Shown one piece after another: positions 1 to 5,634 of a DNA stretch of 64,000 nt. The position numbers were made by a program, and so were the translations under genes. A model generated the notes under the pieces. It had not been told where the DNA came from. It saw nothing but the letters and a program-made list of their open reading frames with translations, and ran no database searches. Source of the stretch: Lysobacterales bacterium (GTDB lineage Bacteria > Pseudomonadota > Gammaproteobacteria > Xanthomonadales > SZUA-38); the NCBI GenBank assembly GCA_028285525.1, contig JANQOZ010000125.1, positions 34,773-98,772 of the forward strand. The letters are read 5' to 3'. How positions within the stretch are numbered: the stretch's first letter is position 1; each line of letters starts with the position of its first letter.

Positions 1-927
1 ACGCCCAGCCCGAACCAGGAGCAGCTGCTGAACGTGGAGCTCACGAGCTTTGCTGACGCGGCGGCTGAAGCGAACCCGGATACGCTGGTCACCAGCACCG
101 GCTACGAGCTCAAGCTGATCCGCCCAAGCGGCGTGTATCGCCTGGGCAGCCCGCGGCGGGAGCAGGGTCGGCGCTCCAACGAGTTTATCCGCCAGGTGCA
201 GCTGGAAAAGCCGTTTTATCTCGGCACGCGGGAAGTGACCAACCTGCAGTTCAAGGCGTTCAGCGCGAGCCACGACTCCGGCATTGCCAGCACCAACAGC
301 CTGAGCCTGAAGGATCAGCCGGTGGTGCGGATCAGCTGGGATCAGGCGGCACGCTTCTGCAACTGGCTCAGCGCCAAAGAAGGTCTACCCGCGGCCTACC
401 AGGAGCGTAACGGCGTCATGGTCCCGGTCACCCCGATGACCATCGGTTACCGGCTGCCCAGCGAGGCGGAGTGGGCCTATGCCGCCCGCTACGGCGGCGG
501 GTCTCAGTCGGCCCGGAAGTACCCGTGGGGTGAGCAGATGCCGCCGCCGGGCGCCGCCGGCAACTTTGCCGGCACGGAGTCCAGCGGTGAGGTAGAGCGA
601 GGGCTGTCGAACTATGCTGACGAATACCCCGTCAGTGCCCCGGTGGGGACCTACGGCAGCAGCGCGCTTGGGCTCTACGACCTGGGCGGCAACGTGCACG
701 AGTGGATTCACGACTATTACCTGATCAGCAGCAGCGGCCTCGGCAAAACGCCGCTCGACCCACTGGGCGCTGCCGAGGGCAGCAACCACGTGATCCGCGG
801 CTCGAGCTGGCGCAGCGGCAGCATCACGGAGCTGCGCCTGGCCTGGCGCGATCAGGGCTCCGGCGGCAAAGACGACATCGGCTTCCGGGTGGCGCGCTAC
901 ATCGACCAGGGCGGAGGAACGCCATGA
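1..927 (+). CDS. Formylglycine-generating enzyme (SUMF1/FGE-sulfatase fold) family protein, 5'-truncated by window edge
   Basis: Frame open from base 1; motifs YRLPSEAEWAYAAR, YPWG, GLYDLGGNVHEWIHDYY, VIRGSSWRSG, LRLAWRDQ..DDIGFRVARY typical of the FGE fold (PF03781-like). Confidence 0.88.
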   Translation, partial: TPSPNQEQLLNVELTSFADAAAEANPDTLVTSTGYELKLIRPSGVYRLGSPRREQGRRSNEFIRQVQLEKPFYLGTREVTNLQFKAFSASHDSGIASTNSLSLKDQPVVRISWDQAARFCNWLSAKEGLPAAYQERNGVMVPVTPMTIGYRLPSEAEWAYAARYGGGSQSARKYPWGEQMPPPGAAGNFAGTESSGEVERGLSNYADEYPVSAPVGTYGSSALGLYDLGGNVHEWIHDYYLISSSGLGKTPLDPLGAAEGSNHVIRGSSWRSGSITELRLAWRDQGSGGKDDIGFRVARYIDQGGGTP

Positions 928-1247
928 ACCAGAACACATTGAAGCTACTTCTCGCTTTGCTGCTCAGCCTTGGCCTTTTTGGGCCTGCGGCCGGTCAGGC
1001 TGACGATTCCGCCGACGGGTCGGAGACGGCTGAAGAGGCCACCGATCCGGCCGCCGAATTTGACCCGGCCATTTGCGATGAGCCGCCGGCGGAGGGGGAA
1101 ACCCTGCCGTCCGAATGCGCGGAGCTGGCGGGCGAAGGACCCCAAGATCAGGTCGACGCGGGGGAGATGCGCGCCACGATGCGCCGCTTTGTGCCCAGCG
1201 AACAAATCTCGGAAGACAGCTCAGTCGCGTTTCCCAACGACATCTGA
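924..1247 (+). CDS. Small secreted/lipidless hypothetical protein (107 aa) with N-terminal signal peptide
   Basis: ATG overlaps upstream stop (ATGA); MNQNTLKLLLALLLSLGLFGPAAGQA signal-like; acidic body; C-term FVPSEQISEDSSVAFPNDI. Confidence 0.75.
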   Translation: MNQNTLKLLLALLLSLGLFGPAAGQADDSADGSETAEEATDPAAEFDPAICDEPPAEGETLPSECAELAGEGPQDQVDAGEMRATMRRFVPSEQISEDSSVAFPNDI

Positions 1248-1308: not shown

Positions 1309-2136
1309 ATGGACGGTTCTGTCAGGACACCCACAACGATGAAAAAAGGTTTCCCGGTTGAGTTTGTGTTTCAGCTTTTTGCGCTGCTCGTCTCGGTGCT
1401 GATTGTGCACACCGTGTACGTCACGGTGGTACGGCCGGCAGCCGCAGAGGTGATGCAGGCGCAGGCGCAGGCGATTGCAGAAGACCCCAACTACGTGCCG
1501 GAGCGATCCGTCTACGTCCTGATCCGAGACTTCGAGCAGGAGGCCTGTTTTGTGCTGCTGTTCTGGGCGCTCGCGATCATGGCCTTTAAAGCCTATCGGG
1601 GTATGCGCGAGCGGCGGCTGCTGGAGCAGGTGCTCATGCCGGTCGGGGAGGGGATCAGTATCCTGCCCGAAGACACCCGCGAGTACTCTCGCCCGCTGCA
1701 GGCTTTGCCCGATCAGGAGCGCCGCTTTCTGCTGCCCAAGGTGCTGCTGACGGCGCTGCACCGCTTTCGCTCCACCCGCGACATCCAGAGCGTCGCCACC
1801 ACGGTGCGCGAGCTCTGTGAGCAGGAGGCCGAGCGCCTGGAGTCGGAGCTTTCCATGGTGCGCTACATCGCCTGGGCGATCCCCTCCATCGGGTTTATCG
1901 GCACCGTCCGAGGTATCGGTGAAGCGCTGGCGCAGGCTCATAAGGCGGTGGAGGGTGACATCACCGGCGTAACCGATTCGCTGGGTGTGGCCTTTAACTC
2001 AACGTTTATCGCGCTGGTCCTGAGCATCTTTCTGATGTTTCTCATGCACCAGCTCCAGCTGATGCAGGAGCGGCTGTCGCTCGACGCGCAGGACTACGCC
2101 GAAGAAAACCTCATCGGTAAGCTGCGTGAGTCCTAA
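1309..2136 (+). CDS. MotA/TolQ/ExbB proton channel family protein
   Basis: Multiple TM segments; IAWAIPSIGFIGTVRGIGEAL...VTDSLGVAFNSTFIALVLSIFLMFLMH resembles the TolQ/ExbB/MotA channel core. Confidence 0.85.
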   Translation: MDGSVRTPTTMKKGFPVEFVFQLFALLVSVLIVHTVYVTVVRPAAAEVMQAQAQAIAEDPNYVPERSVYVLIRDFEQEACFVLLFWALAIMAFKAYRGMRERRLLEQVLMPVGEGISILPEDTREYSRPLQALPDQERRFLLPKVLLTALHRFRSTRDIQSVATTVRELCEQEAERLESELSMVRYIAWAIPSIGFIGTVRGIGEALAQAHKAVEGDITGVTDSLGVAFNSTFIALVLSIFLMFLMHQLQLMQERLSLDAQDYAEENLIGKLRES

Positions 2137-2178: not shown

Positions 2179-3561
2179 ATGATCGGCGTTGTTGAACTCA
2201 ACGACGCCGGCGTGCTGGTGGCGTCCGGCGGCAGCGAGCTGCTGGAGAGCCCGGGCTACCTGGCGTTCGAAGGCAAGAACATGCACGTCGGCGCCGCCGC
2301 CGCGCAGCGGGTGAAGCTCATACCAACGCAGACGCAGTACGCCTTCTGGGAGTACTTCGCGAGCGACACGCTGCCGACCGGCCAGCTGCCCCAGACGGGC
2401 CTGAAACACGCCGACCTGGCCTACCGTCATCTTGAGCGTCTGTGGAGCATCGTCGGCAAAGACCTTAAGCAGCTCGTGCTGTGCGTACCCGCCGACTGGG
2501 GCCGCGCGGAGCTGGGCCTGCTGCTCGGTATCTGCCAGACCCTCAAGATTCCTGTGCGTGCACTGGTGAACGTGGCGCTGGCCGCCAGCGCGGCGCCGCA
2601 GCCGGGCCGCACGCTGATGCACCTGGATCTCCACCTGCACCGGCTGGTGCTGAGCACGCTGGATCAAGGTCCCTGGCTGTCGCAGGCGGCGGTTGAGAGC
2701 ACCCGGGAGGTCGGCCTGCTGCGGCTGCTGGACGGCTGGGCGTTTGCCGCCGCCGGCGCGTTTGTCCAGGCCACCCGCTTTGACCCGCTGCATCAGGCGC
2801 AAACCGAGCAGCAGCTGTTCGATCGGCTGCCGGCCTGGCTGGCGGCGGCCAGCGGCAGTCGGCAGCTGTCGCTGAGCGTGGAGCACAACGGCAACACGGT
2901 TGAGGCTCGCGCGCCATCGCAGATTTTTCGCGACGCCGCTGAGCCGCTGTATCGCCGCATGGCGGAGTTTGTTGGATCGCACGTGGCCGGCGGTGACCCC
3001 GTATCGCTGGTGATCAGTCCGCGGCTTGCGGCCCTGCCGGGAGTCAGCGAGGAGCTGGCTGCGCTGCCGGACGTCGAGCTGATCCCGGGTGGGCGCCTCG
3101 ACTTTGCCGGCGTGCTGAACCGGCTTTACCTGCCGCGCGACGCCGGCCAGGGCGGCGCGGTCAACGTCACCCGGATCCCTTGGTTCAAGTCAGAAGAGCA
3201 GGCCAATCACCAGGCACCGGGCACAGCCCGCGCCTCGGCGCCCACTCACCTGCTACACGAGCACACCGCCTATCGGCTGGCCTCCGGGCAGCCGTTTGTG
3301 GTCGGTGCGGGCGTCCAGCAGAACGACGGGCTGAAGCTTGTGGGCGGCGGCGTGGGTGAGCGTCACTTCCGACTGCGTCAGGAGGGAGGCGGCTGGCTTC
3401 TCGAGGACCTGTCCGGCGGTGCAACCCGCATCAACGGCGAGGCGCTCGAGGGCCGCAGAGCGGTTGCCGCTGGCGACCGTATCCAGCTTGGAAACCCGGC
3501 GCAGGAGCTGATCCTGATCGCCGAGGCCGCAGCCGTGAGGTCTCCCAGTGCCGCGTCGTAA
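2179..3561 (+). CDS. Protein with degenerate actin/Hsp70-like N-terminal region and C-terminal FHA-like domain
   Basis: N-term IGVVELNDAG..., QLVLCVPADW...LKIPVRALVNVALAA, RTLMHLDLHLHRLVLS resemble Hsp70/actin phosphate/linker motifs; C-term FVVGAGVQQNDGLKLVGGGVGERHFRLRQEGGGWLLEDLSGGATRINGEAL..GDRIQLG is FHA-like. Confidence 0.7.
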   Translation: MIGVVELNDAGVLVASGGSELLESPGYLAFEGKNMHVGAAAAQRVKLIPTQTQYAFWEYFASDTLPTGQLPQTGLKHADLAYRHLERLWSIVGKDLKQLVLCVPADWGRAELGLLLGICQTLKIPVRALVNVALAASAAPQPGRTLMHLDLHLHRLVLSTLDQGPWLSQAAVESTREVGLLRLLDGWAFAAAGAFVQATRFDPLHQAQTEQQLFDRLPAWLAAASGSRQLSLSVEHNGNTVEARAPSQIFRDAAEPLYRRMAEFVGSHVAGGDPVSLVISPRLAALPGVSEELAALPDVELIPGGRLDFAGVLNRLYLPRDAGQGGAVNVTRIPWFKSEEQANHQAPGTARASAPTHLLHEHTAYRLASGQPFVVGAGVQQNDGLKLVGGGVGERHFRLRQEGGGWLLEDLSGGATRINGEALEGRRAVAAGDRIQLGNPAQELILIAEAAAVRSPSAAS

Positions 3562-4639
3562 GCGCGAATTCAACGCGTTCAACCTGTCGTTCCTGGACAT
3601 CATGTCCTGCGGGTTCGGCGCGGTGATCCTGTTTTTTGTGATCATCAACCACGCCCAGGACGAGCGGAACGACGACCTGACGGCGGACCTCTCCGGCGAG
3701 GTCAACCTGGTGGAGACTGAGCTTAAGCTCGAGAAGCTCAATCTGGCCAAGCTGCAGAACGCGCTGACCGAAGTCGAGGAGGAGATCGTGACGGCCCAGG
3801 GGGCGTCCGATCGCCTGCTCTCTGAGGTGGACGACACGGAGAAGGAGCTGTCGGAGCAGGACGCGGAGACCGCCGCCAAGCGCGAGCACATGAATCAGCT
3901 CATCACCGATCTGAAGGCGCTGGAAAAAGAGCGTGAGCGGCTGCAGCAGCTCGAAACCGAAGGCGGCGAGAGCGTGCGGACCTACGTCGGTGAGGGCGAC
4001 CGCCAGTACCTGACCGGCCTGCGCGTTGGCGGGCGGCGCATCGCCATATTTGTCGATGCCTCGGCCTCAATGCTGGACGAGACGATTGTGAACGTAATCC
4101 GGCGGCGCAACCTGCCGGACGAGCAAAAGCTGCGGGCGGACAAGTGGCAGCGCGTCGTGCGCACCGTGGACTGGATCACAACCCAGGTGCCTGAAAATGC
4201 CCAGTTTCAGGTCTACACCTTCAACACCAAGGCCACCCCGGCGCTGGAAGGCACCGACGGCCAGTGGCTGGACGTGGAGAAAGGTCGCCGCCTGGACGAG
4301 GCGGTGGACAAGGTTCGCAACATCATTCCGACCGGCGGCACGCGCCTCCATTCGGTGACGGAAACCATCAACAGAATGAACCCGCTGCCGGACAACGTGT
4401 TTCTGCTGGTGGACGGTCTGCCGACCCAGGGCTTGAACCCGGCGACCAAGCGGGGGACCGTGACGTCGCGTGAACGCGAGCGGTTTTTCTACGACGCCAC
4501 CGCCGACCTGCCCATCGGGGTGCCGGTGAACACGATCCTGTTTCCCATGGAGGGTGACCCGAAGGCCGCGAGCGGCTTCTGGCGCCTGGCAATACTCAGC
4601 GGCGGTTCGTTTATCACGCCGGCGAAGGACTGGCCGTGA
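3548..4639 (+). CDS. VWA domain-containing protein with N-terminal TolR/ExbD-like TM helix and coiled coil (VWA-1)
   Basis: N-term FNLSFLDIMSCGFGAVILFFVI TM; long E/K-rich coiled coil; MIDAS IFVDASASM. Confidence 0.85.
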   Translation: MPRRKREFNAFNLSFLDIMSCGFGAVILFFVIINHAQDERNDDLTADLSGEVNLVETELKLEKLNLAKLQNALTEVEEEIVTAQGASDRLLSEVDDTEKELSEQDAETAAKREHMNQLITDLKALEKERERLQQLETEGGESVRTYVGEGDRQYLTGLRVGGRRIAIFVDASASMLDETIVNVIRRRNLPDEQKLRADKWQRVVRTVDWITTQVPENAQFQVYTFNTKATPALEGTDGQWLDVEKGRRLDEAVDKVRNIIPTGGTRLHSVTETINRMNPLPDNVFLLVDGLPTQGLNPATKRGTVTSRERERFFYDATADLPIGVPVNTILFPMEGDPKAASGFWRLAILSGGSFITPAKDWP

Positions 4640-5634
4640 GCCGGCGTAAGCGCCCAGTTGAGCAGGTCAGCCTGTCGTTTCTCGACTGCATCTGCTGTGG
4701 CTTCGGCGCCATCATTCTGCTGCTGGTGATCGTAAAGACCGCTGAGCCGATGATCATCGAGGAAACCCGGGAGGACCTGAGCGGCCTGCTGGCCGACCTG
4801 CAGGAGCAGCTTGTGGAGATCCGCGGCGAGACCACGGTGCTCAACCGCGACCTACAGACCAAAGAAGAGCAGCTGTCGGAGGTGGAAGACAGCATCGCCC
4901 GGCTGCGCATGCTGCTGTCGACGCTGAAATCCGAGTTTGATTCATCATCCGACCAGAGTGACGCCATCACGGCCATCGAAAACCAGCTCAGCCGCGCCCG
5001 CCAGCAGCTCAACGACATGCAGCGCCGGCTGAACTATTCCCGGGCGCTTGAGGACACCACCGTGGGCGGCATCCCGGTGGACAGCGAATACGTGATCTTC
5101 GTGATCGATACCTCCGGCAGTATGCGCAACTTCGGCTGGGACCTGCTGCTGGACAAGATCATCGAAACGCTCGACGTGTACCCGGAAGTGAAGGGCATCC
5201 AGGTGTTGAACGACATGGGTGAATACATGTTCTCCCGCTACGCCGAGCGCTGGATCCCCGACTCGCCCGGACGCCGCAAGGCCATCATCGACCGGATGAA
5301 GACCTGGAGCGCGTTTTCCAACTCCAGCCCCGTCGAAGGCATCACCAAAGCCATTGCCCGCTTCTACAAGCCGGGCCAGAAGATCAGCATCTACGTCTTT
5401 GGCGACGACTTCTCGGGCCGCTCCATCGCCCGCGTGATCGAAACCATCGACAAGATCAACCGCGAGGACGCGGAGGGCAACCGTCTGGTGCGCATCCACA
5501 CGGTCGGCTTCCCGGTCTGGTTTACCGCGCCCCGCTCGCAGCAGGCCTCGGTTGAGCGCTTCGCCACGCTGATGCGGCTGCTGGCGGAAAAAAATGGCGG
5601 AACCTTTGTCGGATTGAATTCTCACCGACCGTAG
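4636..5634 (+). CDS. VWA domain-containing protein with N-terminal TolR/ExbD-like TM helix and coiled coil (VWA-2)
   Basis: N-term VSLSFLDCICCGFGAIILLLVI TM; coiled coil; MIDAS VIFVIDTSGSM; start overlaps stop of VWA-1 (GTGA). Confidence 0.87.
   Translation: MSRRKRPVEQVSLSFLDCICCGFGAIILLLVIVKTAEPMIIEETREDLSGLLADLQEQLVEIRGETTVLNRDLQTKEEQLSEVEDSIARLRMLLSTLKSEFDSSSDQSDAITAIENQLSRARQQLNDMQRRLNYSRALEDTTVGGIPVDSEYVIFVIDTSGSMRNFGWDLLLDKIIETLDVYPEVKGIQVLNDMGEYMFSRYAERWIPDSPGRRKAIIDRMKTWSAFSNSSPVEGITKAIARFYKPGQKISIYVFGDDFSGRSIARVIETIDKINREDAEGNRLVRIHTVGFPVWFTAPRSQQASVERFATLMRLLAEKNGGTFVGLNSHRP

Follow-up and report, generated by a model that had tools for sequence, protein, structure and literature searches.

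Two adjacent genes of a Lysobacterales bacterium encode VWA proteins, VWA-1 and VWA-2, that are likely to be the axle (B-type subunits) of an ion-driven motor of the bacterial inner membrane, one of the MotAB/TolQR/ExbBD kind, with the protein encoded at positions 1309-2136 as its ring. All positions refer to the window, i.e., the whole 64,000-nucleotide stretch of DNA that was analysed. The term B-subunit is used here as a functional claim, which relies on the membrane Asp of each VWA protein, on two threonines of the A-subunit, on the tight pairing of the two genes and on a published model. Membership of the ExbD/TolR family is not claimed, because sequence homology is undetectable.

Genes and predicted proteins of the locus

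The features of the locus are the following:

1..927, + strand: 3' part of a TM-PEGA(x4)-FGE protein (whole gene L012:11577-13700, starting upstream of the window); Pfam PEGA 1.6e-51, FGE-sulfatase 2.4e-41
924..1247, + strand: small predicted secreted protein, poorly conserved (found in 6/39 loci)
1309..2136, + strand: A-subunit of the MotA/TolQ/ExbB family (275 aa); Pfam MotA_ExbB (PF01618) 2.8e-15
1903..1905, + strand: Thr199 codon of the A-subunit (GFIGTV); Thr in 32/32 relatives and 22/22 TolQ/ExbB
2002..2004, + strand: Thr232 codon of the A-subunit (AFNST); Thr in 32/32 relatives and 22/22 TolQ/ExbB
2179..3561, + strand: ASKHA-like cytoplasmic protein (ASKHA by eye only) with a weak FHA-like C-terminus (weak Yop-YscD_cpl/FHA matches)
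3548..4639, + strand: VWA-1, B-like subunit 1 (363 aa), with TM, coiled coil and VWA domain; GTG start
3578..3649, + strand: VWA-1 TM helix, residues 11-34, from the sequence; its sole charge is an Asp
3596..3598, + strand: VWA-1 Asp17 codon (TM), from the sequence; invariant in 49/49
4055..4069, + strand: VWA-1 MIDAS DxSxS (DASAS), from the conservation alignment
4636..5634, + strand: VWA-2, B-like subunit 2 (332 aa), with TM, coiled coil and VWA domain; GTG start
4672..4740, + strand: VWA-2 TM helix, residues 13-35, from the sequence and AlphaFold2
4684..4686, + strand: VWA-2 Asp17 codon (TM), from the sequence; invariant in 48/48
5107..5121, + strand: VWA-2 MIDAS DxSxS (DTSGS), from the conservation alignment

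The coordinates of the VWA genes and the TM strings given in a preliminary description of this DNA agree exactly with the frames and the sequence. In the frames of the window, the stop of VWA-1 and the start of VWA-2 overlap by 4 bases. The two proteins are built alike. A basic N-terminal tail precedes one hydrophobic helix containing a lone Asp, and a long coiled coil then leads to a VWA domain. According to the positive-inside rule, the basic N-terminus implies an N-in orientation, which would place both VWA domains in the periplasm. Their proposed paralogy stands far above chance: VWA-2 is a match to the VWA-1 query in its own genome (E 2.2e-9) and hhalign aligns their N-terminal profiles with a probability of 99.8% (E 5e-28). 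AlphaFold2, run on 30-row alignments, predicts for VWA-1 a single helix (12-138) followed by a VWA fold, with pLDDT mostly >90, and for VWA-2 a similar helix-rod-VWA arrangement with a break at 36-47. The best Foldseek matches of both models are VWA domains (E 3.4e-7 for VWA-1, 3.3e-8 for VWA-2); Pfam VWA models match both proteins below the cut-off only.

Conservation of the membrane Asp and of the metal site

The homologue set consists of 97 full-length proteins (49 VWA-1 and 48 VWA-2) drawn from searches of the class (369 genomes), of the phylum (399 genomes) and of a set centred on an Acidobacteriota member (297 genomes), together with three loci of a collection scan. At the class level, matches scoring under about 40 bits reflect cross-matching of coiled coils or belong to the SALDLFASAMGAF family. 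The TM Asp is kept in 97/97 of these proteins and is the only charge of the helix in 96/97. Loss of this Asp, named beforehand as an observation that would speak against a motor, was thus seen in none of the homologues, and the other such observation, homologous loci with only soluble VWA versions, was not made at any of them. The CGFGA motif, described as conserved, is indeed present in most homologues, but it is not invariant: 8 VWA-1 proteins carry Ser at the Cys position, and SSAFAA is found in the VWA-2 of one family of the same phylum. As CGFGA varies in this way, the Asp is the constant of the helix.

The metal site is intact in both proteins, as previously read. In VWA-1, the DxSxS motif has its Asp in 45/46 and its two Ser in 46/46 and 46/46, accompanied by the Thr in 42/46 and the third-loop Asp in 46/46. 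In VWA-2, DxSxS is complete, the third-loop Asp is found in 46/46 and the second loop carries Ser instead of Thr.

The A-subunit

The A-subunit was aligned with 22 TolQ/ExbB proteins of the same genomes. The columns invariant in both groups are Pro192, Gly195, Gly198, Thr199, Val200 and Thr232, and the channel Glu of TolQ/ExbB corresponds to Val227 in the window protein, a difference that speaks against the motor reading. Judged by eye from its hydrophobicity, the protein seems to have the four TM helices of MotA, not three. A gene of this family was detected at the locus in the genomes tested; at three related loci (L052, L058 and L057), it either follows VWA-2 or went undetected. The window genome encodes five ExbD-family proteins, all elsewhere, and no ExbD/TolR-family gene was found on the contig of the window. 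Zorya was considered and rejected, the ZorA matches being weak A-subunit cross-matches (7.5e-5), with no other Zorya protein matched.

Pairing of VWA-1 and VWA-2

At all loci where both genes are complete (46/46), VWA-1 and VWA-2 occur together on the same strand, VWA-1 first, which supports the reading of a single A-subunit served by two different B-like subunits that invariably accompany each other. In the tree, they form two reciprocally monophyletic clades (support 100/100), which indicates that one old duplication predates their spread. The two proteins have diverged in parallel (mirror-tree r 0.95, shuffled maximum 0.17). Their rods, measured from Asp to MIDAS, are also matched in length (r 0.92 on 46 pairs, 0.88 on 24 distinct length pairs), although much of this signal stems from a single clade with two short rods. 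Since shared ancestry inflates both correlations, they are by themselves no proof of contact. Likewise, the 4-bp overlap is consistent with a 1:1 assembly without proving it. Taken as a whole, the pairing, the two clades and the rod lengths suggest that VWA-1 and VWA-2 probably form a heterodimer. The two proteins behave like B-subunits of the 5:2-type motor proposed earlier, but the obligate nature of the heterodimer goes beyond what these data establish.

Relationship to known motors

To our knowledge, the 5:2 motors solved so far contain two identical B-subunits. In the preliminary description, two different B-subunits for one A-subunit were set apart from classical homodimers; precedents exist in AglR-AglQ-AglS (PMC9389320) and in the TPH-vWA pairs (PMC12204202). 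The latter are TM-tethered vWA proteins, mostly heterologous pairs with a proton-binding Asp, encoded beside tolQ homologues without tolR/exbD (Williams-Jones et al. 2025, PMC12204202); in an AlphaFold3 model, such a pair lies inside a TolQ-like pentamer whose Thr ring the Asp (PMC12204202). The window pair resembles them in its vWA C-terminus, TolR-like Asp helix, TolQ-like A-subunit, absence of TolR/ExbD and occurrence in Proteobacteria, a likeness judged from the features described for these proteins, whose published members include those of Idiomarina. The vWA genes were found paired at 46/46 complete loci; the Asp helix, a TolQ-like neighbour and a cluster devoid of TolR/ExbD were found as well. 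As the window pair has each of these features, the central idea of the preliminary description was already published (PMC12204202), the only relevant report found in the literature on vWA with ExbB/TolQ. The conservation counts, the two clades, the conserved operon and the Acidobacteriota members are new here; the text of PMC12204202 makes no mention of partners of the PEGA-FGE, TPR, lipoprotein or ASKHA-like types.

Like ExbBD and TolQR, the locus combines an A-subunit of the same family carrying the Thr pair with single-TM B-subunits whose Asp is near the helix start. However, ExbBD and TolQR are homodimeric, with a small periplasmic domain and PF02472, a family for which VWA-1 and VWA-2 gave no Pfam match. 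The TolR/ExbD-like TM signature attributed to the pair therefore stands for the position and context of the Asp in an N-terminal helix, not for sequence homology, which is undetectable by hhalign of the TM regions against ExbD/TolR (probability 2.9%).

In the gliding motor AglR-AglQ-AglS of Myxococcus, a single A-subunit is likewise combined with two distinct B-subunits, both of which carry a TM Asp (PMC9389320). AglQ and AglS have TolR-like periplasmic domains, whereas the window pair has a coiled coil and a VWA domain. In the GldKLMN system of type IX secretion and gliding, a motor with a long periplasmic B-subunit is found beside an FGE-fold protein. The proposed window motor also adjoins an FGE-fold protein and its B-subunits are predicted to be long and periplasmic, but GldK is a lipoprotein whereas the PEGA-FGE protein is TM-anchored. 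Sequence membership of the GldKLMN family was rejected: the GldK model reached 101 bits, below its cut-off of 350, and the GldL and GldM models matched no window protein. For AglR-AglQ-AglS, we know of no FGE/PEGA operon.

FHA-ExbB-PP2C-kinase cassettes (L065:8125-12750, L071:5560-12212, L072:4078-13949 and L128:1090-3207) appear to form a sister group of motors, one linked to the phosphorylation of proteins. Their genes encode an FHA protein, an ExbB-like A-subunit (L065, L072), a PP2C phosphatase, a trypsin-like protease and a Ser/Thr kinase. Their B protein has the SALDLFASAMGAF helix with the TM Asp kept, then a coiled coil, and ends in either a VWA domain or a different periplasmic one; each cassette has one B protein, against two at the window locus.

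Alternative assemblies

VWA-1 and VWA-2 could instead build two homodimeric motors on one A-subunit, A5(VWA-1)2 and A5(VWA-2)2, which would serve separate clients. Homodimers can work, as indicated by the FHA-ExbB-PP2C cassettes that have one VWA-tipped B per A-subunit, and for AglR, which is encoded with AglQ and AglS, the choice between homo- and heterodimers was undecided in 2022 (PMC9389320). However, neither VWA gene stands alone in any of the 46 pairs, the rod lengths are matched and the genes overlap in the window, all of which make this arrangement unlikely.

A place outside the ring is far less probable still. In another published family of vWA transducers, an SHLS/His motif mediates attachment to the side of the motor (PMC12204202), and VWA-1 and VWA-2 might by analogy be TonB/TolA-like force transducers attached there rather than a central dimer; yet their TMs lack the SHLS motif, no TolR/ExbD near the motor would occupy the ring, and the TM Asp is invariant. 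It would be equally surprising if the Asp were structural and the two proteins were membrane-anchored VWA scaffolds without ion transport: the undetectable ExbD homology is in keeping with such a role, but this Asp is the sole TM charge and is invariant, and the A-subunit encoded nearby keeps both threonines.

The conserved operon

Neighbour profiles reveal a shared order: a Ser/Pro-rich lipoprotein, a second lipoprotein, a membrane-anchored TPR protein, the TM-PEGA-FGE protein, the A-subunit, often the ASKHA-like protein, VWA-1 and VWA-2. This order is found in Gammaproteobacteria and in one family of another Pseudomonadota class, and many loci add another pair of lipoproteins and an M48 protease after VWA-2. 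At the second locus of the Acidobacteriota group (L179), at least the genes for PEGA-FGE, the A-subunit, the ASKHA-like protein and both VWA proteins are present. Strong matches occurred in only 2/297 genomes of the Acidobacteriota-centred survey, which may reflect transfer or rarity in that group; a search of plasmids gave no match.

In the members read, no Cys occurs in the RGxSW region of the FGE domain. The PEGA-FGE protein was therefore ruled out as a formylglycine-generating enzyme, the catalytic cysteine pair being absent from this region, and its FGE domain is probably structural or binding. A short motif, ITPxxFxP, is shared in its cytoplasmic tail (L012:11577-13700). The ASKHA-like gene is present in 25/39 loci and absent from several that keep the motor; its product (2179-3561) matches no Pfam model above the cut-off.

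Other observations concern the surroundings. The cytoplasmic N-terminal part of the TM-TPR protein (L012:9304-11526) is kinase-like by eye, with no Pfam kinase match, and is missing in other genomes, e.g., L002 and L003. A periplasmic TPR protein with a weak match to the TonB C-terminal domain (L012:3597-5195, E 0.009) is encoded near the operon in 8/39 loci. In one family, a tolQ-tolR pair (L053:18532-19403) lies about 4 kb beyond the M48 protease gene of the operon.

A model of the proposed motor and its significance

The following model can be drawn by analogy. One TM helix from VWA-1 and one from VWA-2 would sit within a ring of five A-subunits, giving a 5:1:1 assembly. Ions would pass from the periplasm to the cytoplasm by binding Asp17 of each helix, facing Thr199 and Thr232 of the ring, and their passage would set the helix pair and the ring in rotation relative to one another. 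With a length of about 100 residues (about 150 angstroms if fully helical), the rods would bring this motion into the periplasm, where the two metal-site VWA tips would grip different partners, most likely proteins of the conserved operon; the likeliest are the membrane-anchored TPR and PEGA-FGE proteins and the outer-membrane lipoproteins.

More tentatively, the locus may encode a trans-envelope machine with an obligate heterodimeric, proton-driven axle, VWA tips on different partners, a GldK-like, non-catalytic PEGA-FGE protein and outer-membrane lipoproteins, i.e., a counterpart of GldKLMN in Proteobacteria and not a Tol/Ton variant. If true, several classes and phyla would share this dedicated machine. 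With a VWA couple that is strictly paired and diverged, each Asp can be mutated singly to test its role, which is also relevant to the question of AglQ and AglS, while the conserved operon narrows the candidate partners of a putative PMF-driven envelope machine to a defined set.
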